From Macrosoma leucophasiata (taxonomy: Eukaryota; Arthropoda; Insecta; Lepidoptera; Hedylidae): DNA of 64,000 bases. Made by a program: the position numbers and the translations under genes. Position 1 is the first letter of the stretch. Each line of letters opens with the position of its first letter. Below, piece after piece: positions 4,431 through 52,945 of the stretch. The stretch is from the NCBI GenBank assembly GCA_036365455.1, contig JAWQUS010000017.1:2480001-2544000 (forward strand). Reading direction: 5' to 3'. Under the pieces are notes generated by a model. That model saw only the letters and a list, made by a program, of their open reading frames with translations, was not told the origin of the DNA and did not search any database.

Positions 4431-4710
4431 CGAAACGTTGTTTGAAAACCGAAATTCCATTGAAAGCTGAGGACAAATTATTTTATCGCGTGCCATGAGT
4501 TTATCATAATATTTTGGATAGATGAAAAATCGTAGTTCGTACTGAACCATTACTTAACTACGAGTAATTTGAGAGAATCCATTTTGTCCATTAACTTTTT
4601 TTGAACTACCACAGTTACCAATGACTTACAAATAGCTCATATTATGTAACTATCTACCTACTACAAACTTTTTGGTGGAAGTAGGTTAAATAAGAAAAAC
4701 AATCGATGTT

Positions 4711-5091
4711 TGTTTTATGTTATTTCGCATTAACACATGCTTGTGAAATATATTTTTAATTAAAGAAAAATGGAAAGAAAAATTTGACTTCAGGCGAGAC
4801 TCGACCTCGCGGCCTACTGGGAATCCAGTCCAGCCGCTCTTCCAATTGAGCTACTGAAGTCCTGCCCGATTTGTCAAATCTTTCCTTCACATTTATTGCA
4901 TTGCTTTATGGTAGCAGCAGCGCCATCTATTGCCAACTATGCTAGTTAGGCAACCGATATAATAGACTTTGCAGTTTATTGAATATCGTAAAGAAGCTTC
5001 TTTGCGCGGCTAGACTAGATTCCCAGCAGGGCGCGAGTTCGAGTCTCGCCTGAAGTCAAATTTTTCTTTCCATTTTTCTTTAATTAAAAAT
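4711..5091 (+). mobile_element. T1: tRNA-derived inverted dimer, 12-bp TSD
   Basis: The element lies between direct repeats ACAATCGATGTT (4699-4710) and ACAATCAATGTT (5092-5103), 12 bp with one mismatch. It starts with an AT-rich leader containing CACATGCTTGTG, then a 76-nt antisense tRNA-like unit (4786-4861), an antisense body with CAGCGCCATCTATT, a junction near 4998-5006 at the palindrome AAGAAGCTTCTT, then the sense 3' half of the tRNA-like unit and the tail TTTCTTTCCATTTTTCTTT. The tRNA-like unit has box A-like and box B-like (GAGTTCGAGTCTC) sequences and an 8-bp acceptor stem, GACTTCAG with CTGAAGTC. The fold has a 9-nt anticodon loop, so I read it as a SINE-type pseudo-tRNA, not a working tRNA gene. 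The duplication and structure are seen; movement by reverse transcription is inferred. Confidence 0.85.
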
Positions 5092-5103
5092 ACAATCAAT
5101 GTT

Positions 5104-6164
5104 GCTTGTCTTTTGCCCGACAGTACCTACTCGATTCCTTGGTGGTCTGCAGATGTAGGTCGTCTATGGATTTTTTTGTCAACATTCTGTCAATTTTTAT
5201 GACAATTAGTGCCTCCTATAAAAAGAATAACGATATCGCCTATCATTATCGCTTGTTTATCACCTACGAAAGTGTATGTGAGATTGTAAACATGTCATGG
5301 TGTTGCATTTGTGTTAGAAATGAAATGGTGAGAGTCTAACGGCGAAAATGGCCCTAATACCAAATTGAAGTCGAAAAAAGTCGCAAATGCAGAAATCGCA
5401 AAAGAATTATGTAAGTTAATTCCTCGCCAGTAACATTTTCCTTTCTATTTCCTTATATTATTATCAGTAATAGTTTAAGTTTGTATTGGGTACGATGGGG
5501 TTGAAATGTCGTGAGACAAAATCACTTTAAAAAAAAAAAAATTACAATCGTTCAAATTTCTTCAATTACAGAAAACTTAAATTCAACAACATATCTAACG
5601 TAAAAGTTCAGTGACTGAAAAAATAGTAAAGTATCGGTTAAGTAGTAAGTAGTAAGTTCTCTTTTCGGTCATACGGGTTGATTTCTATGAATTTGCATGC
5701 ATAGTGGCTGTAATAATAATATGGAGATGAATTCACCCGCTTTCCTTCGTAAAACATAGGAATATAGAAGGATTTTTGGGGTTAAATAACATTAATACCT
5801 GTGGTGTTGATAAATCAAAAAATACAAAGAGTAACAATATATTTTATAAACTATATTTTATGTTTAGAACCCTTAAAGGAACATTGTCTTGTTTTTCCGA
5901 TTCGGACAATGTTCACCTGACTTCTGTTTTAGGCTGGAACGCCTACTGCGCTCGCGGTGAAGTAGACTAGTGCCGTCTTGAGACATGACACCTACATAAG
6001 TCCGTCCTAAAAAAAGCTTGTCTTCTGCGGAACGTTATGAGAAATGAAGATTTTCTAAAGAACAGCGAGACCGTGTCTCATAGAGTAGTAAGTGATGTAG
6101 TATTACTGGGCTCATGTGGACAGGAACTGCTGTTTTATCCCTCAAACAATACACCAGTCCACAC
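5104..6164. other. No feature recognised
   Basis: AT-rich. ATCGCTTGTTTATCACCTAC near 5250 faintly resembles the MITE interior near 12165. Confidence 0.5.
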
Positions 6165-6495
6165 TAAGGTTCATCGCTCACAACAGCCACCCGCAGCCGA
6201 CCAGCACCACCTAGTTTTACGCCGTCCACTCGTTGTCGACGGGTGGTCGACGGATGGTCCACGGGTGAATCACGCTATGTTACTTGTGAACCACTCGCGG
6301 ACCGCGGACCGCGCGCGATCCCCTTGGGAACAGCGAGTTGGATGCAAAATCAAAGCAAGACAGCCTAGTGGTCACCGAGTAATCAACTCGCCGCCCGCGC
6401 GTGAACCGGCTTGCGGCTTACGGATCGGGGTCGATGTAATGAGCGCAGACCGCCCGAGGCGGTCGGGCGCTGGACGGGTGCCGACTGACTCTAGT
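6165..6495. other. GC-rich island with short repeated motifs
   Basis: Strongly GC-rich against the surroundings. GTCGACGGGTGGTCGACGGA and GGTCCACGGGTG variants, CGCGGACCGCGGACCGCGCG and GCCCGAGGCGGTCGGGC (a hairpin) occur. A 155-codon open frame covers it on the plus strand, but its amino acid content looks like GC-driven noise. It may be a subterminal part of an unknown transposon or a regulatory GC island. Confidence 0.45.
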
Positions 6496-7620
6496 GAGCT
6501 ATGACCCTAAGAATCTTATTGATAAAAAACGACACCAGAAAGTCTGATTTAAATTGCTCACTGTCTTATCTGATTAGGTACGTTCCATAGAGCATAGAGT
6601 TGATTATTGAGACCATCTCATTTTTTATATACATCGAGCAAGTCATTATGACAAACAGCAAAACCGTATTTCATTGAGTTAATTCTTCGGATCATGAAGG
6701 GAAAAAAATCTGCCATTTCATCAACGGTCAATGACACTCACAGAGGTCTCCCACCCTAAATAATACTATTCATAGTTAGACACACTGATCTCCTTAATTA
6801 TCTAAAGCTAACCGACATTTTAACCCAAACCGCCAATATTGGTGCCAATGTTGGTGCCAACTGAAGTGTCTATAGCTAAGCCACAGGTCGCTCACCCCGC
6901 TTATGAAATATTCAATATTTTGAACACTGAAATTGGTCCGCGAACCGTACGTTTTGGTGTCATAATATTTCCATGCGATACTCGATTCATAATCGTATGC
7001 TATTTTTAAATGGGTCAACCTGTATGCTAAGTTATGAATAATTTAATGTTCTGGTTATTATAGGTTAGGATCCCACTGCAGAATCATTTCGTTCATCCAG
7101 ATATGCCGCAAACCTCATTTTTACGCATATTTATAATCTAGAAAATATTATATCCACTAGGTTGCCTATCAAAAAATGGCCGCAAGTTTTTTTTTACTGT
7201 ACCTATTCACTATTCACTCTTGGTACCTACCTAATTTGTGACTTTCTTTCTTTCGAAGCACTCGTTATCGGAGCGTATGATCTGTATCGTCTTCTAAAAG
7301 AATAAACGTATCAATCATTATCAATTCATCAGATTTGTGTGAAATAATGTAATGAGCCTTCGTACGCCTATTCTTTTACCTAGGTAACGTAAAGTACTTA
7401 GGTAAAAGTTATACCCTAATCCTCTTTCATAAATTTAATGATACGCGTTCGAAAATCTTTTGCCGAATAATTGCCAATTACCGAATATTCGTACTCACTG
7501 AATATCCACTTGACATTCGTTGAAAATAATTGGATAAATCCCAATGTAATCGAAGTGTAGGGGTTTAATGGAAAGTCATGAAGGTATACCTAGTTGTATT
7601 CAAGAAATATTAATATATTT
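6496..7620. other. No feature recognised
   Basis: AT-rich with no repeat borders that I can recognise. Confidence 0.5.
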
Positions 7621-7805
7621 GACGATCCAGTTGGTCCAGTGGCTTGTGACGGCCTCACGGGTTCGATCCCCGTACCGGGCGGGACAAATATTTGTATCGC
7701 CTTCAGATATTTGTGCCAGGTCTCGGTGTTTGTGTATGTATTGTGTGTGTACAACGGCACCCATGATACAGGTTTATACCTAGTGTGGGGCTGTCAGTGT
7801 ACCTA
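7621..7805 (+). mobile_element. tRNA-headed SINE (ACAAATATTTGT family)
   Basis: The head has GTTGGTCCAGTGG (box A-like) and GGGTTCGATCCCCGT (box B), then GGGACAAATATTTGTATC and GTACAACGGCACCCATGATA. It ends TGTGGGGCTGTCAGTGT. A second copy is at 36322-36520. Confidence 0.8.
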
Positions 7806-7838
7806 AGCGAATTTAGTTCAATTAATTTAGTGTATGTA

Positions 7839-8152
7839 ACTGCCTCTGTAGCGTAGTGGTAGCAGGCCACTACTATTACGCTGGAGGTCCCAGGTTCGAA
7901 TCCCGGGTCGGGGGCTGTCAGAGATAACGGTTTAAAAACCTTTATCTCTGGTTCTATTGAGATTTTTCCATTTTCTGGAAGTTTCTCATTACCTCGGAGT
8001 TTGATAATGTGCCCGGAGATGGCAACAGGTTCGCCACCTGTTACATGGGCCAAAACGTAAGCGGCAAATCGTGGGTTTGCATGTATGCTTGAATGCATGC
8101 ATTTACCTCTGCCTACCCCTTCGGAGATTACAGGCGTGAAGTTACGTTTAAT
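7839..8152 (+). mobile_element. tRNA-headed SINE (GGCGTGAAGTTACG 3' end)
   Basis: Head TGCCTCTGTAGCGTAGTGGT with CCCAGGTTCGAATCCCGGG box B; body CAGAGATAACGG...CCTTTATCTCTGG forms a hairpin; 3' end CCCTTCGGAGATTACAGGCG TGAAGTTACG. It starts ~35 bp after the previous SINE ends. An antisense copy is at 44325-44600. Confidence 0.82.
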
Positions 8153-8164
8153 TTATGTATTTAG

Positions 8165-8305
8165 TAGGTGATAGTGATGATGAGAGATGATGGTGGAGGG
8201 TGTCGCTACTCACCAACAGCTCGCCACAAGCTGCTCTGCCCTCTTATTATCATTATTATAACCTTTGCCTTGCCCTTCGGAGAATACAGACGTGAAGTTA
8301 CATAC
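8165..8305 (+). mobile_element. SINE 3'-end variant
   Basis: GATGATGAGAGATGATGGTG, then TTGCCTTGCCCTTCGGAGAA and ACAGACGTGAAGTTACAT, a variant of the 3' end of the preceding SINE. Confidence 0.5.
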
Positions 8306-8563
8306 AAAAGAATTTCATAATGTCACAATTAGAATGAATAAGGAAAATAAATAATATCACTTGAATATTTTCATTTCATGGAATAACATGATCACGGTAA
8401 AAGGAAATACTTAATTTTATTTGTGATTCGTTTCACTTTCCGGGAAAAGCTGGCAATGTTTAGAAAATATATTACACAGAATAACGTTAATATTATTACG
8501 TTTTCTTCTCTGAATAGAAAAAAGTACTTATTTATATCCGCTGAATATTTATTTATTTATATA

Positions 8564-8657
8564 AGAAATTAAAGAAAAAACGGAAAGAACAATTGAAGTC
8601 GCAGGCTCGATTCCTGCCCGAAGTCAAATTTTTCTTACCGTTTTTTCTATAATTTCT
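8564..8657. repeat. Short palindromic relative of family T
   Basis: A ~94-bp imperfect hairpin with AGAAATTAAAGAAAAAACGG on the left and its near complement on the right. The centre holds a box B-like GCTCGATTCCTGC and the GAAGTCAAATTTTTCTT tail signature of family T. No clear duplication was found. Confidence 0.55.
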
Positions 8658-8689
8658 AAACTTCACGATATACCTATTTTTAAATATTA

Positions 8690-9175
8690 ACTAGCTGTCC
8701 CGGCTAACTAACCGGCTTTTTACTGGTGGTAGAGCTCCAGTGACGGAGCTCGCGGGCTTAGGCACCACCGCATTACCTAATATACTTGCCGCTAAATGGT
8801 AGTGTTCAGCACTATCATGTTCCGGTCAGGTGGTAATGTACGGCCCTAGTACAGAGGCATAACACCTTAGGCCTCAGGAGTGGCAACGCATCTGCATTTT
8901 GACCTTGGTCTTTGTGTGGGTGTCTATAGGCTGCAGTCATCACTTAACATCAATGTGAACTGCATGCTTGATTGCCACTTCCATAACAAAAAAAAAAAAA
9001 AAAAAAACTTTGTATCGCCCCAGAAAAAAAAATTGTCCAAAAATTTTATGAAAAATAGATCTTGGCCGATTCTCAGACCTACCCAATATGCTCACAAAAT
9101 TTCATGAGAATCTGTCCAGCCGTTTCGGAGGAGTATGGCAACGAAAACTGTGACACGAGAATTTTATACATTAGA
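8690..9175 (+). mobile_element. G-family repeat split by an S copy
   Basis: AACTAGCTGTCCCGGC (8690) and, after the S insertion, CTTTGTATCGCCCCAG, CCGTTTCGGAGGAGTATGG and GACACGAGAATTTTATACAT. The same family is at 63281-63575. Confidence 0.65.
8717..9006 (+). mobile_element. Family S, subfamily A, inserted in a G-family repeat
   Basis: Complete from TTTTACTGG to a long A-run. It splits a CTAGCTGTCCCGG...TTTCGGAGGAGTAT repeat whose halves lie at 8690-8716 and 9007-9175. Confidence 0.88.
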
Positions 9176-9610
9176 TAAAAGTCAGGACAAGAAAGGTACG
9201 AGTATTTATTCCTGGTACGGGCGTGGTACGCTACAGTCGCAAGATGCAGATTGCATGGTCTAGCCGACTCTCGGAGCGGGGCCACTTAGCAACAACCTTG
9301 GTACGTTACATTGAACTTACGCGTACTACCAGGGCTGCCACAGACCACTTTTTTCTTTTTTTTAAACTGTAGTGGCGAACGAGTTCAGTTAACTCGCTGA
9401 TTATTTTGTTGTGACAACATTTCGGATAAAAACGTTTACGGTTATACTTTTAGGATGAATGCCTTGTTAAATGGTAGTCATGATTGAGTAACTGACATAA
9501 TAGGATAGTGATTTCGGCTTCATTGTTTAGTTAAATGCTAAAAAAAATATAAAGTTGTGGTAACTTTTAGCAAACTATTTCTTTAATCAATATATATTAT
9601 TATCTTCATA
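9176..9610. other. No feature recognised
   Basis: Slightly GC-richer around 9210-9300, without open frame or repeat match. Confidence 0.5.
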
Positions 9611-9756
9611 CCCCCTTATTCATAAACGTATTTTAGCTAAAGTGTTGCTAATCTCTCCTTTTTCTTTTTCTATCCTGCACATTTGACAATGCAACTGACA
9701 AAGACAAAGCATTCTATAGCTAAAACGTATCTAATGAACGTTTATGAATAAGGGGG
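9611..9756. mobile_element. 146-bp MITE
   Basis: Ends CCCCCTTATTCATAAACGT and ACGTTTATGAATAAGGGGG, a 19-bp nearly exact inverted repeat. The interior has TCTTTTTCTATCC and an AAAGACAAAG stretch. TTAA follows the right end. Confidence 0.82.
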
Positions 9757-9762
9757 TTAATA

Positions 9763-9955
9763 TATAAAAAATACGTGTCACAGTGTTTGTCCGCGATGGA
9801 CTCCTAAACTACTCAACCGATTTAAATCAAACTTGCACACCGTGTCCAGTTTGATCCAACTTACCAGATAGGATAGCGTACATCTCAATTTATGGTTGCA
9901 ATATTATTTAAGTACCTTAACTGCACCCGTGCGAAGCCGGTGCAGGTCGCTAGTA
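9763..9955 (+). mobile_element. Helitron-like repeat, CTAGT end
   Basis: AAACTACTCAACCGATTTAA in the middle; the 3' end GCACCCGTGCGAAGCCGGTG...GTCGCTAGT contains a short GC hairpin and a CTAGT terminus, as in lepidopteran Helitron-like repeats. Confidence 0.6.
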
Positions 9956-10326
9956 AAAGAGATGTTGCGAGCTCGGCTCTGGTTCGTACACTACCTCAAA
10001 AAATGGGTAAATTAAAGAAGAATCCGAAAAAAATACAATTAATTTATTCAAGAATATATTTTAGAGTTACAACCACATTTAATTCAAACGATTTTATCAT
10101 TTTCAATATGAATATTAGTGGAATTCGTCAAAATGACATCGCCCGCCATATTCGTAATCTTGGTTTTGAGTTGCAATTCTAACTGCAAATAATGTTTTGT
10201 AACTGCAAGCAAAGCTTAATTAGTGAATATATGCAGTAAAAAACGTTTTTATATTGATTTTGCCTGTTAATGATGTTGTGTACAATACATGGCCGGAGGT
10301 CCATACATTTATGCAACATCTCCTTT
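9956..10326. mobile_element. Family M MITE, 371 bp
   Basis: GAGATGTTGCGAGCTCGG start, GCAACATCTCCTTT end. It lacks the interior block present at 753-1227. Its left edge coincides with the CTAGT end of a Helitron-like repeat. Confidence 0.8.
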
Positions 10327-10384
10327 ATATTATTGAGCGACGAAAAAAAAACGGAGGAGGTTCTCAAGTCGACGCAAATAAGCG

Positions 10385-10544
10385 TACAGTTTACATTGAT
10401 GGTAAGTAATACAGTAGCATATAAACATTTACGGAGACTGGAGATTTCAATGTGGATGCGTTTCCACTCCTGAGGTCTTAAGTATTATGCTTCTGTGCCG
10501 AAAATTACAGGGCCGTGCATTACCACCTAACCGAAACACTATAG
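10385..10544 (-). mobile_element. Family S, 5'-truncated
   Basis: Antisense tail to middle region, ending at AACACTATAG. It abuts another S copy in the same orientation, giving a head-to-tail pair. Confidence 0.75.
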
Positions 10545-10832
10545 TTTTTTATGTCATAGAAGCGGCAAACAAGCATGCAGTTCACATTGATGTTAAGTGA
10601 CGACTGCAGCCTAGAGACACTTACACAAAGACCAAGGTCAAAATACAGATGCGTTACCACTCCTGAGGCCTAAGATGTTATACCTCTGTGCCGGAAATTA
10701 CAGAGCCGTACATTACCACCTGACCGGAACACGATAGTGCTGAACACTACCATTTAGCGGCAAGTATATTAGGTAATACGGTGGTGCCTACGCCCGCGAG
10801 CTCCGTCACTGGAGCTCTACCACCAGTAAAAA
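10545..10832 (-). mobile_element. Family S, subfamily A, full length
   Basis: T-run at 10545-10550, intact 5' hairpin antisense ending CTACCACCAGTAAAAA. Confidence 0.87.
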
Positions 10833-11048
10833 GTTAAAGTAATTCATCGAAGTTGTCTCAAATTACTTGCATCATCGCAATTCATTTGATTGGTTTGTAG
10901 TTATTACAGAGAAAAACATAATGTTCCCGCAGTAAAAGCCCCCAGAGTTAAAATAATACTTGATTGCCTTGTACAATCAACTACAGATCAACCTAAAAAA
11001 CCGTTCCAACGCCTTTTATAGCGTAATCTGAAGTTGAGTGAACAACAT

Positions 11049-11323
11049 GGGTCTTGGGGTGTTTCGGTCCGCTCGTGTTTCGTCCCGCGGACCGAAACAC
11101 CTAACAATGCCTTCTGAATGGGTCGATTTGGTCCGCGGGACGAATCGCCCCATATTTTTATTATTATAGGGCGATTCGTCCCGATATGAATGCCTGATTT
11201 AAAAGATTTAAGTACAGTTACACTAAATTGAGAAATAAATAAAATGCAATGTATTATGATAAAATTTATATTTATTTATAATTACCTACACAAAAATAAA
11301 CTTAAACAAATAAATCAAATTAA

Positions 11324-11370
<47 letters not shown>

Positions 11371-11617
11371 CATTAATCATATGTAGTCTAGTATCAATCA
11401 CTTGAAAAAACTCAAATAATTGGTGAACGAAAATATTTTTCTTTGTATTCGACTGTACATGACTATATGATTGGACCGAATCTACCCATTTAAGAAGAAC
11501 TCTTGGGCGATTCGGTCCACTTTCCATTTGTGGGCCGAATATCCCCATGAATATAATGCTTATAGGCGTTTCGGTCCGCGGGACGAAACACGAGCGGACC
11601 GAAACGCCCCAAGACCC
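11049..11617. mobile_element. Foldback element with nested stem-loops at both ends
   Basis: Perfect 7-bp flanks ACAACAT (11042-11048, 11618-11624). Ends GGGTCTTGGGGTGTTTCGGT and its complement; inverted similarity is ~55 bp. Each end is itself a hairpin (GTGTTTCGGTCCG... CGGACCGAAACAC). The motif GGTCCGCGGGACGA recurs inside in both orientations. A long (AC)n run sits in the interior. Confidence 0.8.
11331..11367 (+). repeat. (AC)n microsatellite
   Basis: About 18 uninterrupted AC units inside the foldback element. Confidence 0.95.
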
Positions 11618-11761
11618 ACAACATGTACCTACAAGCAGAGGCATGGAGTTATTATTTCAAAAGATATTTTTTTTAGAATAACACAAAATTCCTTATCATG
11701 TTTTAAAACTTTTGTAGGTACTGGAACTTTTAAACGCACACTGCACTGGACAACCATTTCA

Positions 11762-11828
11762 TTTTTTTTTATGTGGTACGCAATCATGCAGTTCACATAG
11801 ATGTTAAGTGATGACTGCAGCCTATACA
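11762..11828 (-). mobile_element. Family S 3' fragment
   Basis: T-run, then GCAGTTCACATAGATGTTAAGTGATG antisense match, only the last ~65 bp of the element (matched motif 11790-11815). Confidence 0.65.
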
Positions 11829-11834
11829 TATATA

Positions 11835-13139: not shown

Positions 13140-13415
13140 TGACACTAATGGCCAAATACTCAATTTCAAGCAACCCTCAAATGTGCGCTATCTCTATCGT
13201 TTGAACCTGTTTTATAAAGACAGAAGCCTTTTAAGTCCCACTTAGATTTGAGTGACGTTTGAGTATTTGGCCGTAAAACACGAAAAGATTGGACATTTTA
13301 AATGGTTTTAAATTCTTACTAACTTATATAAAAGATTGGATTAATAAAGACTAACCTAAGTTAGTAAGAATTTAAAACCATTTAAAATGTCCAATCTTAT
13401 CGTGTTTTAGTGTCA
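13140..13415. mobile_element. Palindromic MITE with ~55-bp arms, carrying a nested MITE
   Basis: Arms: AAACACGAAAAGATTGGAC...TAACTTA on the left and the near-perfect complement at 13357-13415. The left arm is split after GACACTAA by the 125-bp element at 13149-13273. Restoring that junction gives a continuous left arm. Confidence 0.82.
13149..13273. mobile_element. Family C MITE, TAA duplication
   Basis: Ends TGGCCAAATACTCAA and GAGTATTTGGCCG, flanked by TAA on both sides (13146-13148, 13274-13276). Copies at 20617-20744 and 57137-57271. A 3-bp TAA duplication is compatible with PIF/Harbinger-type elements; TA cannot be excluded. Confidence 0.8.
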
Positions 13416-21869: not shown

Positions 21870-22033
21870 TTAATTAGGTACATAGAAACTTATTTTTTAT
21901 TACAGTTTTTCGCAATAAGACATCGTACCTTTAGAATTAAAGTGGCATATCTCTAAAAAATAAGAAAATGACTTTCATACATCAAACGACTTAAGAACAT
22001 ATAATCTATCAAATTATTAATAATTTAATAGTA

Positions 22034-22434
22034 TTTTATTTTTAAAGAAAAATGGAAAGAAAAATTTGACTTCAGGCGAGACTCGAACTCGCGACCTACT
22101 GGGAATCTAGTCCAGCCGCTCTTCCAATTGAGCTACTGAAGTCCTGCCCGATTTGTCAAATCTTTCCTTCACATCTATTGCATTGCTTTATGGTAGCAGC
22201 AGCGCCATCTATTACCAACTATGCTAGTAGTAAGTATAAGTATTGCAATAGATGTGAAGGAAAGATTTGACAAATCGGGCAGGACTTCAGTAGCTCAATT
22301 GGAAGAGCGGCTGGACAAGATTCCCAGTAGGTCGCGAGTTCGAGTCTCGCCTGAAGTCAAATTTTTCCTTCCATTTTTCTTTAAAAATAAAATATATTTC
22401 ACAAGCATGTGTTAATACGAAATAATATAAAAAC
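22034..22434 (-). mobile_element. T2: tRNA-derived inverted dimer, 12-bp TSD
   Basis: Flanked by perfect 12-bp repeats AATTTAATAGTA (22022-22033 and 22435-22446). The + strand reads the tail (antisense), a complete antisense tRNA-like unit (22068-22143), the body, an inversion junction around 22225-22240, then a complete sense unit (22283-22358) and the leader with CACAAGCATGTG. The insertion sense is the minus strand, because the A-rich 3' terminus (AAAAATAAAAT when read in sense) is on the left. Both arms are nearly identical over more than 150 bp, which implies the palindrome formed at or near insertion. Confidence 0.87.
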
Positions 22435-22639
22435 AATTTAATAGTAGTTATTGATAGTTTAACATGTTTTTTAAGTCGTTTGATGAATAAAAGTCATTTT
22501 CTAAATTTTTTGCGATGCCACTTTAATTCTAAACGTGCAATATACGAGTGAAATACTTTTGGAAAAATAAAATTAAAAAGGAAATGCAATAATGTGAAAG
22601 AGATATTCGATAGTCGAGTGTGCTACGGTAACTTAGTAA

Positions 22640-22730
22640 TAAGATTGCTTAGACTAGTGATCCAGTGGTAGCGGATTCAAGTCCCGCGAAGTCAAGTCAA
22701 ATATTTCTTTCCATTTTTTAAATACTTAAT
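22640..22730 (+). repeat. Degenerate tRNA-like T relative
   Basis: Contains GATTCAAGTCCCGCGAAGTC followed by AAATATTTCTTTCCATTTTT, matching the T-arm/acceptor and tail layout of family T with a different box B. Too degraded to fold reliably. Confidence 0.45.
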
Positions 22731-27250: not shown

Positions 27251-27356
27251 CCTCATAATGGTCAAGCGGCGAGATCCCTGATTGTATCTACATTGACTTA
27301 TTTTCCAAATGTTGTGTTTCATCATCATTATTTTCATTGGTTACTACATCAGTCAT

Positions 27357-27686
27357 ATTTTATTTTAAAGAAAAATGGAAAGAAAAATTTGACTTTAGGC
27401 GAGACTCGAACTCGCGGCCTACTGGGAATCTAGTCCAGCCGCTCTTCCAATTGAGCTACTGAAGTCCTGCCCGATTTGTCAAATCTTTCCTTCACATTTA
27501 TTGCCTTGCTTTATGGTAGCAGTAGCGCCATCTATTACCAACTCAATTGGAAGAGCGGCTGGACTAGATTCCCAGTAGGCCGCGAGTTCGAGTCTCGCCT
27601 GAAGTCAAATTTTTCTTTCCATTTTTCTTTAAAATAAAATATATTTCACAAGCATGTGTTAATGCGAAATAATATAAAAAAACAAT
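27357..27686 (-). mobile_element. T3: tRNA-derived inverted dimer, 12-bp TSD
   Basis: Flanked by perfect 12-bp repeats TACATCAGTCAT (27345-27356 and 27687-27698). It has one full antisense tRNA-like unit (27391-27466), a short body, a junction at about 27538-27545, and a 5'-clipped sense unit (27543-27606) followed by tail and leader. The junction falls inside the tRNA D-arm region, unlike T1, T2 and T5. This copy lies about 100 bp beyond a Helitron-like fragment. Confidence 0.87.
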
Positions 27687-27698
27687 TACATCAGTCAT

Positions 27699-29361: not shown

Positions 29362-29714
29362 TTTTTTTTTATGTAATGGAAGTAGCAAACAAGCATGCAG
29401 TTCACATTGATGTAAAATGATGATTTCAGCCTATAGACACTTACAAAAAGACCAAGGTAAAAATGCAGATTCGTTACCAATCCTGAGGCCTAAGATGTTG
29501 TTATGCCTCTGTGCCGGAAATTACGGTTCCGTACATTACCACCTGACCGGAACACGATAGTGCTGAACACTATCACTTAGTGCCAAGTATATTAGGTAAT
29601 ACGGTGGTATCTCGCCTGAAGTCAAAATTTTTCTTTCCATTTTTCTTTAAAATAAAAATACGGTGGTGCCTACGCCCGCAAGCTCCGTCACTGGAGCTCT
29701 ACTACCAGTAAAAG
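29362..29714 (-). mobile_element. Family S, subfamily A, carrying nested T6
   Basis: T-run at 29362, antisense core, interrupted at GGTAATACGGTGGT by T6, then the antisense 5' hairpin ending ACCAGTAAAAG. The T insertion is therefore younger than this S copy. Confidence 0.87.
29609..29656 (+). mobile_element. T6: 48-bp 5'-truncated T copy nested in an S element
   Basis: Only the end of the T-arm, acceptor strand and tail (CTCGCCTGAAGTC to CTTTAAAATAAAA) is present. It is bounded by AATACGGTGGT on both sides (29598-29608 and 29657-29667), an 11-bp duplication of S sequence. This small insertion fixes the 3' end of the family and shows that copies can be severely 5'-truncated. Confidence 0.85.
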
Positions 29715-29805: not shown

Positions 29806-29895
29806 AAGAAAAAATAAATTTTGACTTCAGGCGGGACTTGAACCCGCGACCATTGGGTTCTCTAGTCCGGTATCCCAACAGGACTCCATTATTCT
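29806..29895 (-). repeat. Antisense tRNA-like element related to family T
   Basis: The minus strand reads a box B-like GGGTTCAAGTCCCGCC and then CTGAAGTC and a T-rich tail. The anticodon-side sequence differs from T1-T5, so this may be a separate subfamily with a different tRNA head. No duplication seen. Confidence 0.45.
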
Positions 29896-37873: not shown

Positions 37874-38731
37874 ATGAGTGAATCTAATGAAGAAATTCGA
37901 TACATTTTAAAATTTTACTACAAAAAAGCTAAAAATAGGACTATCGATTCTGAACTCTACTGCGAACAACTGATGAGATGAAAGCAAGAAGTTGAAAGAA
38001 AGCGGCCGGAATTGATCAACAGAAGGGGTGTGGTGTTTCATCATGATAACGCTAGACCTCACACATCTATAGCCACTCAGCAAAAATTAAGAGAGTTTGG
38101 CTGGGGGAGGTGTTAATGCATCCGCCGTATAGTCCTGACCTTGCACCTTCAGATTTCCACCTGTTTCGGTCTCTTCAGAATTCTTTATGCAATATTTTAT
38201 TTTTAAAGAAAAATGGAAAGAAAACATTGACTTCAGGCGAGGCTCGAACTCGCGACCTACTGGGAATCTAGTCCAGCCGCTCTTCCAATTGAGCTACTGA
38301 AGCCCTGCCCGATTTGTCAAATCTTTCCTTCACATCTATTGCATTGCTTTATGGTAGCAGCAGCGCCATCTATTACCAACTATGCTAATAGTTAGGCAAC
38401 CGATATAATAGACTTTTCAGTTTATTGAATATCGTAAAGAAGTCGCTTTTACCCTTAATAATTGTTTTATATTATTTCGCATTAACACATGCTTGTGAAA
38501 TATATTTTATTTTTAAAGAAAAATGGAAAGAAAAAATTGACTTCAGGCGAGGCTCGAATCTTTATGCAATGTTAGGTTAACATCACGAGAGGACTGCCAA
38601 ATCCACTTGTCGCGGTATTTTGATGAGAAGTCCCAAAATTTTTATAGCAATGGGATCATGTCCCTACCGACAAGATGGCAAAAGGTTATCGAACAAAATG
38701 GTACATACATACTTTAGTTAAATTTAAATAA
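37874..38731 (+). pseudogene. mariner transposase remnant
   Basis: The ATG at 37874 opens MSESNEEIRYILKFYYKKAK, a mariner-type N-terminus, followed after an internal deletion and a stop (TGA near 37979) by the catalytic region around VVFHHDNARPHTS (about 38030-38070). The frame is broken again, then PPYSPDLAPSDFHLF (about 38120-38165) supplies the third catalytic aspartate region. T4 splits the remnant after this, and a last piece with SLPTRWQKVIEQNG follows near 38660-38700. Most of the helix-turn-helix and the first catalytic aspartate region are missing, so it cannot be active. Confidence 0.85.
38194..38558 (-). mobile_element. T4: direct (tandem) dimer of the tRNA-derived unit
   Basis: Flanked by perfect 12-bp repeats TCTTTATGCAAT (38182-38193 and 38559-38570) and inserted in the coding remnant of a mariner transposon. 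Read on the minus strand, it begins inside the T-arm of one tRNA-like unit, runs through tail, leader and body, reaches a complete second tRNA-like unit (38229-38304), and ends in the same tail as the other copies. GACTTCAGG recurs at 38229 and 38539, giving a 310-bp unit. This copy supplies the linear order of the unit that the inverted copies scramble. Confidence 0.88.
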
Positions 38732-45909: not shown

Positions 45910-46467
45910 AAAGGAGATGTTGCAAGCTCGGCTCTGGTTCGTACAATACCTCAAAAAATGGGTAAATTATAGAAGAATCCGAAAAAAATACAATTAAAGG
46001 AGATGTTGCGAGCTCGGCTCTGGTTCGTACAGTAGTACCTCAAAAAATAGGTAAATTATAGAAGAATCCGAAAAATATACAATTAAATTATTCAAGAATA
46101 TATTTTCGAGTTACAACCACATTTAATTCAAACGATTTTATCATTTTCAATCTTGTTCAACATGGCGGCGATACAGCCTACGCCTGGGATAGTACCTATG
46201 TAGATAAAACAAAACCTAATCCACTAATAATCGATTAAAAAAAATAGTATCGATTATTATTGGAATTTGTCAAAATGACATTGCCCGCCATATTCGTCGT
46301 GTTGGTTTTGAGTTGCAATTCTAACTGCAAATAATGTTTTGTAACTGCAAACAAAGCTAAATAAGTGAAAATATGCAGTAAAAAACGTATTTATAATGAT
46401 TTTTCCTGTTAATGATGTTGTGTACAATACATGGCCGGATATCCATACATTTTTGCAACATCTCTTT
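45910..46467. mobile_element. Family M MITE with duplicated left end
   Basis: The left ~86 bp (45910-45995) is repeated immediately at 45996-46082, each beginning AAAGGAGATGTTGC. The right end reads GCAACATCTCTTTT. The copy interrupts or abuts an RTE LINE remnant (45585-45909). Confidence 0.78.
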
Positions 46468-46759
46468 TCCATGTTTGACATCCATATAAAAAACCCAAAC
46501 TAGGTACTTTCTTCTAACTCGAAGCGAACTCAAAGCATCCAGCCATTTAACAAACTATGCATAGAACATAAAACAGCTCTCTGAAGCGGCATACCTAATT
46601 GGTATTTGTAAAGAGCTAGGTTACGGCGCGAGCGTGAAATGTCAAGAAACTATGCGACCTTCTAAACTGATGTTTGACGAATGACAGCTACGTAGCGTGG
46701 ATTTTATTAGCTGCGTTTTTCTAGGTCTCTAGGTTTAACTAGAACTGGTATCATGGTAC

Positions 46760-46828
46760 GTGAATACTGCAGCTATAGACATCTACACAAGAAGCAAAGC
46801 TCAAAATACAGATGCGTTGCCAAGTTTT
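46760..46828 (-). mobile_element. Family S fragment
   Basis: CTGCAGCTATAGACATCTAC and AATACAGATGCGTTGCC antisense; a new T-run follows. Confidence 0.5.
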
Positions 46829-46993
46829 TTATGTAAAAAGTAACGGTTGTCATTTATTCCGGTCACGTTTTGATAAGAGAACCAACCAAACGATTAGGGT
46901 TGCACTCCAAACCAACGCATATTCACTTATTCTTGCTAAAAGAGTAATTAAAAATGTTCCTAATTACCCCTTACATTATCAACTGCCATACAT

Positions 46994-47300
46994 TGCTAGG
47001 CATAGAGCAACACGGGCCACCGGCCGCGGCGGACTGGGGGGGAGTAGCCATAGCGTTTATTACCGATGCAAAACAGTCTGTATTTTTTTGCGGGGGCAAT
47101 GCGTGCAACACACACGCCCACTACAAAAATCGTCCATTACTACGAAAGTCACACCTTGACTTTAACAAAATTCTGAAACAATTTCACGCACACATTTAAA
47201 CATCTAGGCGACAGGTATAAGCCCATTTGGGCTTGTACTTTGACAGAGGGGAAAGCCTGCGTATGGCTACTCCCCTCCGGTGTTGCTCTTTGTTGCTAGG
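46994..47300. mobile_element. Probable ~307-bp element with inverted ends
   Basis: Left TGCTAGGCATAGAGCAACAC with GGGGAGTAGCCATA; right (antisense) CCTAGCAACAAAGAGCAACA with GGGGAGTAGCCATA. The arms align with small gaps. The left arm is GC-rich (CACCGGCCGCGGCGGAC). No clear duplication. Confidence 0.6.
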
Positions 47301-47400
47301 TGATAGTACAAAAATGTTTAGATTCGACAAGTTGTTTCAAATACTTCGAACTTATAAACGGCATAATACGATTAACCATCGTTCTTTTCATCGTTCATGT

Positions 47401-47489
47401 TTATTTATTTATTTATTTAAACTTTAATGCACCTAGTACATAAGGCGGACTTAATGCCATAGGGCATTCTCTACCAGTCAACCTTGAGG
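47401..47489 (-). mobile_element. 89-bp 5'-truncated copy of the LINE at 33331, 6-bp TSD
   Basis: Matches the last ~90 bp of that LINE, including AAATAAATAAATAA tail; flanked by TCATGT (47395-47400, 47490-47495). Confidence 0.85.
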
Positions 47490-47525
47490 TCATGTCTCCC
47501 CAAAGTCTCCAAATAGGTAGTTTTT

Positions 47526-47810
47526 TTTACTGATGGTAGAGCTCTTATGGCGGAGCGCGCGAGCGTAGGCACTACCGCATTACCTCTATCTGCCGTCAAA
47601 TGGTACTATTCAGCACTATCGTGATCCAGTTACATGTAAATATATGACCCCCGTAATAACTATCACAGAGACATAACAACTTAGGTCTCAGGGGTGGTAA
47701 CGCATCTGCATTTTGACCTCTGGTTTTTGTGTAGACATCTATAGCCTGCAGTTATCTCTTAACATCAATGTGAGCTGCATGCTTGCTTACCACCTTCCTT
47801 ACATAAAAAA
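47526..47810 (+). mobile_element. Family S, subfamily B, full length
   Basis: TTTACTGATGGTAGAGC start; contains CACAGAGACATAACAACTTA and ends CCTTCCTTACATAAAAAA. Confidence 0.86.
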
Positions 47811-47886
47811 GCAACAGCATTTTTTCCTGAGTTAAAGAGTAGATAGATGGATAACCAAACTTAACAAACAAAATCTTACTGGTGGA

Positions 47887-48184
47887 TTTTACTGGTGGTA
47901 GAGCTCCAGTGACGGAGCTCGCGGGCGTAGGCACCACCGCATTACCTAATATACTTGCCGCTAAATGGCAGTGTTCTGCACTATCGTGTTCCGGTCAGGT
48001 GGTAATGTACGGCCCTGTAATTTCCGGCACAGAGGCATAACACCTTAGGCCTCAGGAGTGGTAACGCATCTGCATTTTTACCTCTGGTCATTGTGTGGGT
48101 GTCTATAGGCTGCAGTCATCACTTAACATCAATGTAAACTGTATGCTTGTTTGCCACTTTTAAAACAATAAAAAAAAAAAAAAA
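47887..48184 (+). mobile_element. Family S, subfamily A, full length
   Basis: Preceded by a stray CTTACTGGTGGA, a partial repeat of its own 5' end. Intact hairpin, core and A-run of about 16. Confidence 0.87.
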
Positions 48185-48617
48185 CATAATATAAGTTAAT
48201 TCAGTTGATTTCCTTTAACAATTCATTTTAAGCCTCTACTGTTAAGTGTTCCCAATTCCCCCACTCTCCCCTACCAAGATTAAACGCATCCTTCATTGTT
48301 TGAGTTCTCAAATTACTCTGCACTCCTCCACTTTGATCTGTACATACACGTCTACATTATAGTAGATATATCAGATTCGATCTCAAGTCACGTAGCTCTA
48401 GCCGAACCCACGCAGAAAACTGAATTGGTTAGCAAATATTAGTTTAGTTAGTATGGAAAAATCAAGGAAGGCTTTTGCTTACTAGTGTTTTCTTTGCACG
48501 TCCTTGTGGCGAATTGGGTTGAAAAAAGTGTGGGCACAATGATCATATGAACTCCATGCAAGTAGGTTTTAAAGGAAGTGGCTATGTATAGGTTATTAGG
48601 TATGAAAGATTGTTATC
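48185..48617. other. No feature recognised
   Basis: Spacer before the poly(A) retroposon. Confidence 0.45.
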
Positions 48618-48627
48618 ACTCGAGAAA

Positions 48628-48924
48628 ACAACACAAACCTAGTGAGAAGACTTAAGAGAACTAAACCTTTTGAGTTAGTGTAGTGTTAAAAAAATAATAG
48701 TGTTAGTGACTTATTTTGCATAATCACACGAACAAAGTGACTTCCCCTTAAGACATACTAAGAAAGTGCCAGTGGACATTTATATAATATAATATAATAT
48801 TTATTATTTTATTAGAAGTTTAAGTTAGCATAAAATTGCTTATTAGTCTTTTAGGCTAGATTGTAATTTTAATAAGGTTCAAAAAAGGACCTTACGTTAA
48901 TTAAAAAAAAAAAAAAAAAAAAAA
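48628..48924 (+). mobile_element. Poly(A) retroposon of unknown source, perfect 10-bp TSD
   Basis: Flanked by ACTCGAGAAA (48618-48627, 48925-48934). The 297-bp insert ends in about 22 A. The last part reads AAGGTTCAAAAAAGGACCTT, a small hairpin, then ACGTTAATT. No match to families S, T or the two LINEs here. It is either a LINE 3' end of another family or a retrocopy of an mRNA 3' end. Confidence 0.78.
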
Positions 48925-48934
48925 ACTCGAGAAA

Positions 48935-49321
48935 GATCGGTTAACTGGAATATTTTATTTTGTTTGTATTGGTCAGGCCAGGGTGAGAGATCTGTTGAGA
49001 TTCACTTGAAAAATAAACAATCGACAAGTTCGACAAAACGAAAAAGATTAAATTATTAGGAAAATACCCGAAAGTATTTTCGTATTATTTAATAATCTTT
49101 AGAAAAACATGTAATGCACATATAATACCTATGCAATAAAATAAATTCAGGGTAAAAACAGCAGCAAAACGGTCGAAATTCGGAATAACAGTAGGTAGTA
49201 GCACAGTCTAAAGAAAACGAACATGGTGGTAGGAGGTAGTACCTACTCGTATGTTGTAATTGATTTCGATCATAACAATAAAAACATATTTTTCCTTGTT
49301 TCCAAAGTATATTTTAGTATT
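48935..49321. other. No feature recognised
   Basis: AT-rich spacer. Confidence 0.45.
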
Positions 49322-49801
49322 TTTAGGGTTCCGTACCTTAAAAGGAAAAAAGAAACCCTTATAGGATCACTCGTGCGTCTGTCTGTCTGTCTGTCCGTCT
49401 GTCACAGCCATATTGCTCCTGCTAATTTGATGAATATATGTAAATTGGTGACCCAAAGAACACGTCAAGTAAAATAATACATTTTAAACAGGGGGGCCAC
49501 TTTCGGGGGGTAAATCAGAAAATTAAAAAAAAAATGTGTCGTGTGACATATCAAATGGAAGAGGTTGTTATCAGCATCTCAGATATTTTTTTTTTATAAT
49601 TTTGGCATAAACAAATTTGAAGTTATTTAAGAAAAACGACGAAAATTGACCATTCCCCCCCCCTCCCCTATCTCCGAAACTACTGAATTTAAAAGTTTGA
49701 AAAAAATGTGGAAAATAGTTCTTTGCCTATAGATAAACCTAAAAGAAGTAAGTACGGAACCCTCACCACGCGAGTCGAACTCACACTTGTCCGGTTTTTA
49801 A
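49322..49801 (+). repeat. Lepidopteran GGGTTCCGTAC repeat
   Basis: TTAGGGTTCCGTACC, CTTATAGGATCACTCGTGCG, GTCTGTCTGTCTGTCCG; ends TACGGAACCCTCACCACGCG and CACACTTGTCCGGTTTTTA. Class unknown to me. Second copy 51058-51627. Confidence 0.75.
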
Positions 49802-50337
49802 TAGGAAATAGGGGTACGTTATATATAATTAACACGAGCTGCTTGTAAGCATATATTCCTAAACCAACGATAGCCTAAGGATACAAGCTGTCGCCTTATA
49901 AAAAGTAAATTCGCTTCCGCACGTCTATAGTCGTGGGATAATTTTATTACGCTGCCTTACTTTCCCATTTGTAATATTAATATAAATTAAACAGATATCT
50001 ACAGATAAACAAAACCCATGTATCTATAAGTACAAACTGGCCGCAAATGGTTTTCCTTAAGCATTAATTACTTCACAAACTAGTAGATACCTAATACTAC
50101 TTCGAATGAATTCTCCATCAAAATAACAGTGCTCAAGCGATTGCGTTTCGTTGTATCCAATAATTACAGGCTACAAGGAACACGATTTCGCTCTCAATAC
50201 TACGATGGAACATCTAAATAAGTACTCTGTTACTCTGTAATGGAATCTAAAATAGTAGCGACTTTATTCACAATAACTTTCTTACTTTCAACTGCACAAA
50301 CTGAACAAAGAATCACCTTCATCTCCAATCTTCCGTG
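49802..50337. other. No feature recognised
   Basis: AT-rich spacer. Confidence 0.45.
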
Positions 50338-50344
50338 AGTTGCT

Positions 50345-50652
50345 TATTTTACTGGTGGTAGAGCTCCAGTGACGGAGCTCGCGGGCGTAGGCACCACCGC
50401 ATTACCTAATATACTTGCCGCTAAATGGTAGTGTTCAGCACTATCGTGTTCCGGTCAGGTGGTAATGTACGGCCCTGTAATTTCCGGCACAGAGACATAA
50501 CACCCTTAGGCCTCAGGAGTGGCAACGCATCTGCATTTTGACCTTGGTCTTTGTGTGGGTGTCTATAGGCTGCAGTCATCACTTAACATCAATGTGAACT
50601 GCACGCTTGTTTGCCACTTCCATTACATTAAAAAAAAAAAAAAAAAAAAAAA
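50345..50652 (+). mobile_element. Family S element, reference copy
   Basis: A ~300-bp element with a poly(A) tail, flanked by AGTTGCT (50338-50344 and 50653-50659). It starts TTTTACTGGTGGTAG and opens with a strong hairpin: GAGCTCC-AGTGAC-GGAGCTC inside GGTGGTA...GCACCACC. It continues through CTATCGTGTTCCGGTCAGG, CACCTTAGGCCTC (here with one extra C) and GGCTGCAGTCATCACTTAAC, ending GCCACTTCCATTACAT and A-run. No tRNA head is seen. The layout resembles the 3' region of a lepidopteran non-LTR family that I know from other moths; whether it is a SINE or a recurrently truncated LINE 3' end is unresolved. This copy represents subfamily A (TAATTTCCGGCACAGAGGC); subfamily B has TAATAACTATCACAGAGAC. 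Confidence 0.85.
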
Positions 50653-50821
50653 AGTTGCTCGTAGGTTGATTTTCAATTAATAGATAAACCGAATCTAGTT
50701 CGACCTTCACCTATCTGTTTACCGAATGAAACATTGTTTTTATTAAAGGAGACGGGTAATTTTGGGCCTGCAAAATCGTACCTGGTTAACCCATTAGACA
50801 GTAGGTACGTACATTTTGTAA

Positions 50822-50874
50822 TACAGTTAACAATTAGCAATAACTAGTTGGATTAGAGCTAATTGTTAACTGTA
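50822..50874. repeat. Perfect 17-bp inverted repeat
   Basis: TACAGTTAACAATTAGC and GCTAATTGTTAACTGTA with a 19-nt loop. Confidence 0.8.
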
Positions 50875-51057
50875 TAACTAACCCAACTTGATCATACGAT
50901 ACTTGATCATATATACTTCAATAACTAATAATTCAAAAATGCCCAATATTCAAATTATTTATTTTATTGTCATTTGAAAATGACATAATTTGTACAGTGA
51001 TAACATCTGGGCCAAGAAATGTATGGAACAGTATCATTCTCCTTTCAAACGTAGACG

Positions 51058-51627
51058 TTTTTAGGGTTCCGTACCTTAAAAGGAAAAAAAGGAACCCTTA
51101 TAGGATCACTCGTGCGTCTGTCTGTCTGTCTGTCTGTCCGTCTGTCACAGCCAATTTGCTCCGAAACTACTCGACCGATTGAGTTGAAATTTGATAAATT
51201 GTAAATTGGTGACCCAAAGATGAACACGCCAAGTAAAATAATAAATTTTAAACAAAAAACCCCCCGAAAGTGGCTCCCCACTTTCGGGGGGTAAATCAGA
51301 AAATTAAAAAAATAGGTTGGAAGAGGTTGTTGTCAGCATCTCAGATATATATTTTTTATAATTTTTGCATAAACAAATTAAAAAAGTAATTTAAGAAAAA
51401 CGACGATAATTGAACTTAAAATTTTGAAAAAAATGTGGAAAATAGTTCTTTGCCTATAGATTACTGGTAAACCTATAAGAAGTTTGAGTATTCAAATTAA
51501 ATCGAAAATTCTTAATAATATAACCCCCCCTGCCGGTACCACCGTAACCGCTATGTCCCTGCATTTTAAATCTGTACTATTTTCGAAAATATTTATTTAA
51601 ATTACGGTACTCTCACCACGCGAGTCT
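51058..51627 (+). repeat. Lepidopteran GGGTTCCGTAC repeat
   Basis: Same start and middle as 49322-49801, including CTTTCGGGGGGTAAATCAGA; an insert with CTGCCGGTACCACCGTAACC precedes the end CTCACCACGCGAGTC. Confidence 0.72.
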
Positions 51628-52159
51628 GTCTTAGACCCCGTGCTCTCTATCCGGTCTTAGGACAAGGGTGTGTGAAAAACCACTGAGCCATCCGGGTCCT
51701 TCCTTCCTACCCAATCCGACCTTGCTACAGTGTAAATTGATATTGATATCAACTATGTTACGTATGACCACAGGAAGTTGCTCACGGTGAATTTTAAAAT
51801 TAAATCTAAATAACAGGAGGCTAGTCTAAGTAAATAGCTAAGGTGACAATGTAGTCGCGCTATTTCAAATGGATTCGACGTTTTGAGGCTAAGTGCCGAG
51901 TTTATCGCGAATGTGCGTTTGTGTAATGTTCCTAGAAATACGTATGGATGGGATCTCTTCTATTTTGTTTGCTAGCTGCAATAGACCTGCAAATATATGT
52001 AAACAAACAAGCGATTCACTTCACAACGGCAGCGACAATTTTGACTGGGTAATTATTTTTCTGTTAATAGATTTTTTTTCTAAAATCACAGGACGACCTA
52101 CCTACGTACCTGGTAATCTAAATAAGTAGGTAAGAACCAACTTATTTAGATTTACGCAA
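51628..52159. other. No feature recognised
   Basis: Small inverted repeat AATCTAAATAAGT / ACTTATTTAGATT at about 52116-52153. Confidence 0.45.
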
Positions 52160-52550
52160 GCTAACACACTCGTTTCATCATCATCATCATCATTGCAGCC
52201 AAAAGACGTCCACTGCTGAACAAAAGCCTCCCCCAAAGAATGCCACAGCGATTGCCCGCGACCTTCCATCTTGTGGGAGGCCTGCCCACGCTTTGCTTTC
52301 CGGTACGTGGTCGCCACTCGAGAACTGCTCTGCCCCAACGGCCGTCAGTTCATCGAGCTATGTGCCCTGCCCACTGCCACTGTAGTCTCGCTATTCGGTG
52401 AGCTATGTCGGTAACTTTGGTTCTCATGCGGATCTCCTCATTTCTGATTCGATCTCGCAGAGAAACTCCAAGCATAGCTCTCTCCATTGCTCTCTGAGTG
52501 ACCTTGAGCCTTCTTATGAGGCCCATAGTGAGCGACCACACACTCGTTTA
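52160..52550 (-). mobile_element. RTE-type LINE 3' end
   Basis: The minus strand encodes RMRTKVTDIAHRIARLQW, then QWAGHIAR, continuing to FGGGFCSAVDVFWLQ before a GATGATGATGATG run. These are typical of the RTE C-terminus and tail. 5'-truncated; T5 follows 15 bp later. Confidence 0.85.
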
Positions 52551-52565
52551 AATAACACAAAGTAT

Positions 52566-52933
52566 TTGTTTTATATTATTCGCATTAACACATGCTTGTG
52601 AAATATATTTTATTTTTAAAAGAAAAATGGAAAGAAAAATTTGACTTCAGGCGAGACTCGAACTCGGGACCTACTGGGAATCTAGTCCAGCCGCTCTTCC
52701 AATTGAGCTACTGAAGCCCTGCCCGATTTGTCAAATCTTTCCTTCACATCTATTGCATTTAATGCATTTAATGCAAATTTCTATTGCATTTAATGAAGGA
52801 AAGATTTGACAAATCGGGCAGGGCTTCAGTAGCTCAATTGGAAGAGCGGCTGGACTAAATTCCCAGTAGGTTGCGAGTTCGAGTCTCGCCTGAAGTCAAA
52901 TTTTTCTTTCCATTTTTCTTTAAAAAATAAAAA
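52566..52933 (+). mobile_element. T5: tRNA-derived inverted dimer, 12-bp TSD
   Basis: Flanked by perfect 12-bp repeats AACACAAAGTAT (52554-52565 and 52934-52945). Leader, full antisense tRNA-like unit (52643-52718), short body, junction zone at 52758-52795 with repeated TTTAATG, full sense unit (52822-52897), tail ending CTTTAAAAAATAAAA. Same polarity as T1, and adjacent to an RTE LINE fragment (52160-52550). Confidence 0.88.
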
Positions 52934-52945
52934 AACACAAAGTAT

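Follow-up and report, generated by a model that had tools for sequence, protein, structure and literature searches.

The closest described relatives of the family reported here are Penelope-like elements (PLEs) with a GIY-YIG endonuclease, namely PAc of Anolis carolinensis (PMC11167929) and the Penelopes of Adineta vaga (PMC3846280); statements about cited papers refer to the passages of them consulted. Inverted partial copies, an optional tail at one inverted pseudo-long terminal repeat (pLTR) and the apparent trans-mobilisation of a host gene are already known for PLEs (PMC3846280). In vitro, PAc has both target strands cut and extended, and reverse transcriptase (RT) starts internally at two adjacent sites, the sequence between which corresponds to the genomic tail; in bulk, the two strands did not differ visibly in start site (PMC11167929). 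We present here T, a 310-bp, tRNA-bearing family found in a 64,000-bp window (the whole stretch of DNA analysed) of the lepidopteran Macrosoma leucophasiata (GenBank assembly GCA_036365455.1, contig JAWQUS010000017.1, positions 2,480,001 to 2,544,000). T is very probably a non-autonomous Penelope-like element with a tRNA passenger, moved in trans by a PLE of the same genome, most likely the one termed PLE-D below.

GIY-YIG PLEs resemble T in their tandem and head-to-head inverted partial copies (the pLTR arrangement; PMC11167929, PMC3846280), in two internal RT start sites with cutting and extension of both strands, and in an ATT-type cut preference (PMC11167929) with a short target duplication. 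Their optional tail of 30 to 40 nt, found at one inverted end in A. vaga (PMC3846280), is slightly shorter than the 45-nt tail of T, and the duplication is 12 bp in T versus 8 to 10 bp in the A. vaga Penelope cases, one of which has none (PMC3846280). Unlike these PLEs, T has no open reading frame (ORF) and carries a tRNA. The near-obligatory pairing in T of one S end with one L end (two terminal sites defined below) is not stated as a rule in the consulted passages on PAc and the A. vaga PLEs (PMC11167929, PMC3846280).

Metazoan retrozymes are, like T, non-autonomous tandem elements of about 300 bp, with PLEs proposed as drivers (PMC7229834). They carry type I hammerhead ribozymes, whereas none was found in T by the scans described below, and their link to PLEs is argued from shared habits and coexistence (PMC7229834), whereas that of T runs through shared termini and insertion pattern. 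The tRNA-derived short interspersed elements (SINEs) of Lepidoptera, HaSE1/2 (PMC3272025) and PxSE1-3 (PMC8010984), are also short and tRNA-derived. HaSE1/2 have a 5′ tRNA head and a 3′ part resembling a long interspersed element (LINE) or mariner, and HaSE1 duplications measure 5 to 18 bp (PMC3272025); T is set apart from both SINE groups, by their descriptions and not by sequence, through its 3′-side tRNA, circular permutation and PLE-type terminus. In A. vaga, an NRPS gene between Pen3a pLTRs has the same end architecture as T and was apparently moved in trans by PLE machinery, as a single event, whereas T is a high-copy family (PMC3846280).

Results

Read in the sense of its tRNA, one copy in the window (T4) contains a complete 310-bp unit composed of a tail, a body, a tRNA-like region at about unit positions 199 to 276, and a T-rich stretch. 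The 45-nt tail ends in ...GCGAAATAATATAAAACAATT (the L end); the T-runs that follow the tRNA lead into a stretch ending in ...CTTTAAAAATAAAA(T) (the S end). The unit restarts after the S end, so it is circularly permuted, and runs of more than three consecutive units occur. S and L are two fixed terminal sites, 45 nt apart, and most copies end at one of them. No ORF of at least 110 aa overlaps the long copies T1 to T5 in the window, and T has no ORF for a telomerase-like RT with a GIY-YIG endonuclease. Nor does it have the LINE-type layout of a 5′ RNA polymerase III (Pol III) tRNA head with a LINE-like or A-rich 3′ tail, its tRNA lying on the 3′ side, although no search for LINEs, or for resemblance of the tail to them, was made. 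Since the T-runs come directly after the tRNA and before S, a Pol III transcript would be expected to terminate too early to serve as template.

The five long copies each lie between 12-bp direct repeats, and 12 bp is the longest exact flanking repeat for T2, T3, T4 and T5. The initial annotation had reported 12-bp duplications in five of five long copies, four inverted dimers and one direct; all of these are present (T1, T2, T3 and T5 inverted, T4 a direct tandem of about 1.2 units), with the qualification that the T1 repeat contains one mismatch. Both T1 arms carry the uncommon variant TTTAATTAAAAAT. A sixth copy of 49 bp (T6), absent from the initial annotation, is flanked by an 11-bp repeat. 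ARAGORN called seven tRNA-like regions in the window, and a whole-window cmscan called five of these at 42 to 53 bits.

An exact 26-mer of the T body occurs at 13,337 places in the 616-Mb assembly (61 contigs), and its reversed-pattern control at 0. The first 100 in the list, every one from contig C1, collapse into 78 loci, from which we estimate about 10,000 T insertions in the genome. Every one of the 78 loci was examined (the C1 sample), yielding 84 closed elements (83 longer than 150 bp) and two cut by the end of a stretch. This sample was picked by the body 26-mer and not by end structure; copies lacking the 26-mer were missed, and short copies such as T6 are therefore under-represented. 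A second set, obtained by a search with T4 (30 loci plus 14 more stretches), is biased to long copies. The combined set holds 128 elements, all longer than 150 bp and complete within their stretch, after removal of L006, L007, L008 and L030, which duplicate other loci, and of the unrelated L045. Among the 128 are a few degenerate relatives, such as the second element of L066 (75 to 81% identity). One 26-mer of the T tRNA region had 0 matches in IMG/VR.

The 128 copies have 217 outward 3′ ends, of which 202 fall at S or L (position windows covering 63 of the 310 unit positions) and 15 fall elsewhere. By end class there are 72 L/S, 3 L/L, 1 S/S, 19 one-ended S and 17 one-ended L copies, and 16 others, 14 of them inverted with one end outside both sites. 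Inverted copies with both ends classified thus combine one S with one L in 72 of 76 cases (P = 1.8e-17 under 50:50); the C1 sample alone gives 46 of 49 (P = 3.5e-11). Since the two sites are about equally frequent among one-ended copies, some half of the pairs would be mixed if each end were chosen independently.

Target duplications were scored in the combined set with one mismatch allowed and a score cut, under which T5 is assigned 16 bp. A repeat above the cut flanks 59 of the 72 S/L copies: 11 bp in 2, 12 bp in 21, 13 bp in 11, 14 bp in 8 and 15 to 21 bp in 17. Exact repeats of at least 11 bp flank 48 of 83 C1 copies of all classes, against 0.34 expected from pairing flanks of different copies (491 pairings scaled to 83). 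With exact matches only, C1 S/L copies have at least 11 bp in 34 of 46 and 6 to 9 bp in 12 of 46, the latter being within the chance range. One-ended copies have a repeat less often (16/36). Some longer values stem from element ends that resemble the flank, and the “exactly 12” of the initial annotation is best read as a 12-bp stagger extended by chance or by such resemblance: the genome samples do peak at 12 where a clear duplication is found, rather than being broad. Ordinary monomers do not predominate in the C1 sample, the other pattern that would have spoken against that annotation; 49 of 83 C1 copies are inverted with both outer ends at S/L sites and 22 are one-ended. Its fixed ends and varied junctions also hold, to which we add that the ends are two sites, S and L, used one each.

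Cut sites were tallied in the 21 S/L copies scored with a 12-bp duplication, each oriented by its two ends. After the S-priming cut come G (15) or A (4), then T (17) and T (15); after the L-priming cut, G (8) or A (8), then T (15) and T (14). RTT is thus preferred at both cuts, in agreement with the ATT that PAc is reported to favour on either strand (PMC11167929). G comes first more often at the S-priming cut (15 versus 8 of 21), but with p = 0.06 we make no claim of a difference.

The S and L arms of 71 of the 72 S/L copies were aligned to the unit, and positions that were non-consensus in either arm were scored, neighbouring columns of one indel counting separately. The two arms agree in their non-consensus allele at 114 of 312 positions (0.365). 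When arms were permuted among insertions, this fraction averaged 0.079 and never exceeded 0.131 in 1000 permutations. For the 54 pairs sharing 20 or more columns, arms of one insertion are 2.7% apart and arms of different insertions 5.5%. This sharing of variants, far beyond chance, argues for one source RNA or later homogenisation. The internal junctions give 71 distinct coordinate pairs in 71 copies, 7 of which fall into three near-coincident groups, so most inverted copies were made anew and not copied as units.

The 5′ ends of one-ended copies cluster at unit positions 101 to 126 (11/36; P = 1e-4, the window having been picked after looking) and 277 to 296 (9/36), which suggests that RNA 5′ ends or RT stops are favoured there. 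Cutting by RNase Z/P at the tRNA was considered as a source of template 5′ ends. The second cluster lies just 3′ of the tRNA, as this idea expects; if every tRNA were cut at its 3′ side, S and L would be lost, and with the 101 to 126 cluster as well, the idea stays a lead only. L025 (386 to 1193) contains two T pieces in tandem, both beginning at unit position 281 and reaching the L end, with about 6 nt between them; it looks as though RT, on arriving at the 5′ end of one RNA, had resumed at the L site of another. Selection on the tRNA region was sought as lower divergence and was not seen, either at all sites (0.029 versus 0.022 in the body) or without common variants (0.0136 versus 0.0126). 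Three common variants in this region, at unit positions 202, 250 and 263, need not, on our reading, break the cloverleaf.

PLEs were searched for with a PLE reverse-transcriptase consensus. PLE RT is encoded at at least 150 places (150 scored of 676 candidates). About 30 of the 150 lie in open frames of 832 to 854 aa, some in tandem at about 2.6 to 2.7 kb and some as inverted pairs; the open frames and the many identical scores across the list suggest recent PLE activity. Arrays of tandem copies with open frames of 843 to 854 aa are seen at C30:17485953-17501144, C5:7801178-7809493 and C17:908593-914445. The best named relatives of one PLE protein are mostly lepidopteran. An 818-aa frame (L125) is 41% identical over 814 columns, and a 494-aa frame (L127) 42% identical, to one anole protein, whose first 50 residues are those of the published PAc RNA with one differing. 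Pfam RVT_1 matches L125 at 8.5e-06 (below the curated cut-off) and L127 at 1.4e-10 (above it). A GIY-YIG motif, G(V/I)Y...YIG, was read by eye in the PLE proteins of this genome. The Pfam GIY-YIG domain (PF01541) was rejected as a handle for PLEs, having one match genome-wide and going undetected in the three PLE frames or frame pieces scanned.

T and PLE-D share the L terminus TAAAACAATT, a 10-nt run anchored at the terminus: T ends in ...GAAATAATATAAAACAATT|A and PLE-D in ...GAAAGTTTAAAACAATT|A at ORF nt 32. PAc RT starts at nt 111 to 118, within ...GAAAGCCTTCGACAACACATT (PMC11167929), and the L end of T and PLE-D is the site homologous to this in-vitro start (peptides ESLRQH versus ESLKQL). 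Three of three inverted PLE-D copies examined have one S and one L end, with duplications as in T (Table 1). The Penelope-type machinery moving a tRNA-like passenger that the initial annotation had guessed at is therefore supported by the many genomic PLEs and by these three insertions with the same ends, pairing and 12-bp duplication (12 to 13 bp in one). Its tail TTTCTTTCCATTTTTCTTT, for which it had proposed a search in Penelope-like or LINE elements, is located immediately inside the S end; what T has in common with a PLE is instead the L terminus. The junction of one inverted PLE-D copy (L127, 1121 to 1212) is an inverted-repeat hairpin with a weak mir-1010-like match on both strands (E 0.011 and 0.041, below the Rfam threshold).

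Table 1. T copies in the window, with their target duplications and tRNA-like regions, and the three inverted PLE-D insertions
Feature	Positions	Strand	Remarks
T1 left target duplication ACAATCGATGTT	4699..4710	.	One mismatch vs right copy
T1 insertion	4711..5091	.	L arm antisense 4711-4996; S arm sense ~5006-5091
T1 right target duplication ACAATCAATGTT	5092..5103	.	
T1 tRNA-like region	4785..4861	-	ARAGORN tRNA-Ser GGA; no cmscan call in whole-window scan
T2 left duplication AATTTAATAGTA	22022..22033	.	
T2 insertion	22034..22434	.	S arm antisense up to 22234; L arm sense from 22238
T2 right duplication	22435..22446	.	
T2 S-arm tRNA-like region	22068..22142	-	ARAGORN and cmscan, 52.6 bits
T2 L-arm tRNA-like region	22284..22358	+	ARAGORN and cmscan, 52.3 bits
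T3 left duplication TACATCAGTCAT	27345..27356	.	
T3 insertion	27357..27686	.	S arm antisense up to ~27543, L arm sense after
T3 right duplication	27687..27698	.	
T3 tRNA-like region	27391..27465	-	ARAGORN and cmscan, 48.2 bits
T6, short one-ended S-type copy	29609..29657	+	Flanks AATACGGTGGT at 29598-29608 and 29658-29668
T4 left duplication TCTTTATGCAAT	38182..38193	.	
T4 insertion	38194..38558	-	One-ended direct tandem, ~1.2 units; S end at left; 38195-38504 = one full unit
T4 right duplication	38559..38570	.	
T4 tRNA-like region	38228..38304	-	ARAGORN; cmscan 49.4 bits in small scan, absent from whole-window cmscan list
T5 left duplication AACACAAAGTAT	52554..52565	.	
T5 insertion	52566..52933	.	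L arm antisense up to 52759; short TTTAATGCA repeats as filler; S arm sense from ~52795
T5 right duplication	52934..52945	.	
T5 L-arm tRNA-like region	52643..52717	-	ARAGORN and cmscan, 42.4 bits
T5 S-arm tRNA-like region	52823..52897	+	ARAGORN and cmscan, 51.7 bits
PLE-D C18			L/S ends; duplication 12-13 bp
PLE-D C14			L/S ends; duplication 12 bp
PLE-D C7			S/L ends; duplication 12 bp; L end stops 3 nt short

Two further stretches of the window are related to T and are possibly older or sister families: 29821-29868 (-), at 82% over 49 columns, which shares the GACTTCAGGCG arm and differs by eye in the anticodon region, and 22583-22718 (+), at 69% over 140 columns. Mariner-transposase-like sequence was recognised by eye beside T4 (window ~38000-38180), which may sit within it, and beside a PLE at L124 (112 to 915).

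Discussion

Alternatives to PLE-driven movement account for parts of these data. If T were an ordinary tRNA-derived SINE moved by a LINE, with twin priming producing the inverted copies, the good cloverleaf score of the tRNA-like region, the inverted pieces that twin priming yields and the window ORFs with an RVT_1 domain would all be in keeping. This is nevertheless very unlikely, given a tRNA on the 3′ side of the unit and not at its 5′ end, two fixed outer ends, one of each in 72 of 76 inverted copies, a duplication peaked at 12 and not variable (59 of 72 S/L copies with a clear repeat), and circularly permuted units in arrays of more than three. In twin priming, the second cDNA starts at a variable internal site and not at a second fixed one. 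We give hardly any credence to a foldback or other DNA transposon, in which the inverted arms would be terminal inverted repeats and a transposase would make the 12-bp duplication: the arms and the near-fixed duplication length suit it, but the termini differ (S versus L), the junction coordinates are distinct in 71 of 71 copies, even with the near-coincident groups, 36 of 128 copies are single-ended without an inverted arm, and tandem circular permutation is typical of RNA templates.

It is also very unlikely that T belongs to the metazoan retrozymes, circular RNA elements of about 300 nt that are processed by ribozymes, despite the similar unit size, low G+C content, tandem units and proposed PLE driver of these elements (PMC7229834). 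Whole-window cmscan found no hammerhead at the Rfam gathering score, and a scan of the T4 stretch to E 10 returned a single weak match (E 0.31), which lies in the flank outside T4. The PLE pieces likewise gave no hammerhead match up to E 0.5, so the search may be blind to degenerate ones.

Several observations weigh against the view that T is moved by PLE-D, or limit it. The S/L rule is broken by 4 of 76 copies (L/L in L041, L094 and L109; S/S in L056), only one of which, L094, has a clear duplication. Another 14 inverted copies have one end at neither site (11 L/x, 3 S/x); counted as failures, they leave the S/L rate at 72 of 90. No repeat above the cut flanks 13 of the 72 S/L copies. The concordance of arms may owe something to gene conversion between them. 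RNA folding at the start sites is no better than in shuffled sequences (z -0.77 for T, 0.25 for PLE-D). The PLE-D architecture comes from three insertions, in one of which (C7) the L end is 3 nt short, and RTT follows only 1 of their 6 cuts, read by eye, so the motif is not confirmed for PLE-D. The spacing of S and L is 45 nt in T versus 31 nt in PLE-D. Apart from the L terminus, T has little in common with the PLE pieces examined, and unanchored local alignment of the T end zone against crude shuffles gives p = 0.23 for PLE-D, 0.04 for PLE-A, 0.37 for PLE-B and 0.50 for PLE-C. As these alignments are unconvincing, the link between T and PLEs rests on the terminus-anchored 10-nt run and the shared architecture.

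Under PLE-driven movement, the enzyme would cut both target strands, preferably before RTT, 12 nt apart, and each cut 3′ end would prime cDNA synthesis on T RNA at an internal start site. Synthesis would begin at S on one strand and at L on the other, L being a site of the same RNA that lies 45 nt further 3′. Running toward each other, the cDNAs would be joined at a variable point, producing a head-to-head inverted dimer with one S end and one L end, while the 12-nt stagger would be filled in as the duplication. Extension of a single strand would give a one-ended direct copy, and a tandem or circular RNA would allow a copy to span more than one unit. We infer PLE-D itself as the driver, and both cDNAs as made on one RNA molecule rather than on two RNAs of one source locus; the way in which the cDNAs are joined, the function of the tRNA and the cause of S/L pairing are likewise inferred. 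The simplest reading would have one RNA in an enzyme dimer offer S to one cut and L to the other.

A broader proposal, which we hold to have an even chance of being right, is that PLE integration is an obligatorily asymmetric two-strand reaction in which one RNA lies on an enzyme dimer with two start sites and each staggered cut takes a different one, so that every complete insertion would carry an S end and an L end; the tRNA of T may take the place that the ribozyme has in other small PLE-driven elements, as a module for RNA processing or stability. The absence of a strand difference in the bulk PAc data fits either strand taking either site. To the PAc picture the T data add that the two strands of one insertion use different sites and RNA of one source.

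Neither a PLE-driven family with a tRNA, nor S/L pairing as a rule, nor arms of a common source came up in the full-text literature searched, which did not take in most subscription journals or Repbase. T provides sequence-level evidence for a short non-coding family moved by PLEs and not by LINEs; for retrozymes the corresponding case was made on the basis of habits in common and of coexistence. Its tRNA is an addition to the passengers of PLEs. Present in high copy, this 310-bp passenger is a natural record of how a Penelope insertion is completed, and it indicates that the cuts lie 12 nt apart and each precede RTT, that of two start sites each strand uses one, and that both arms stem from one source RNA.

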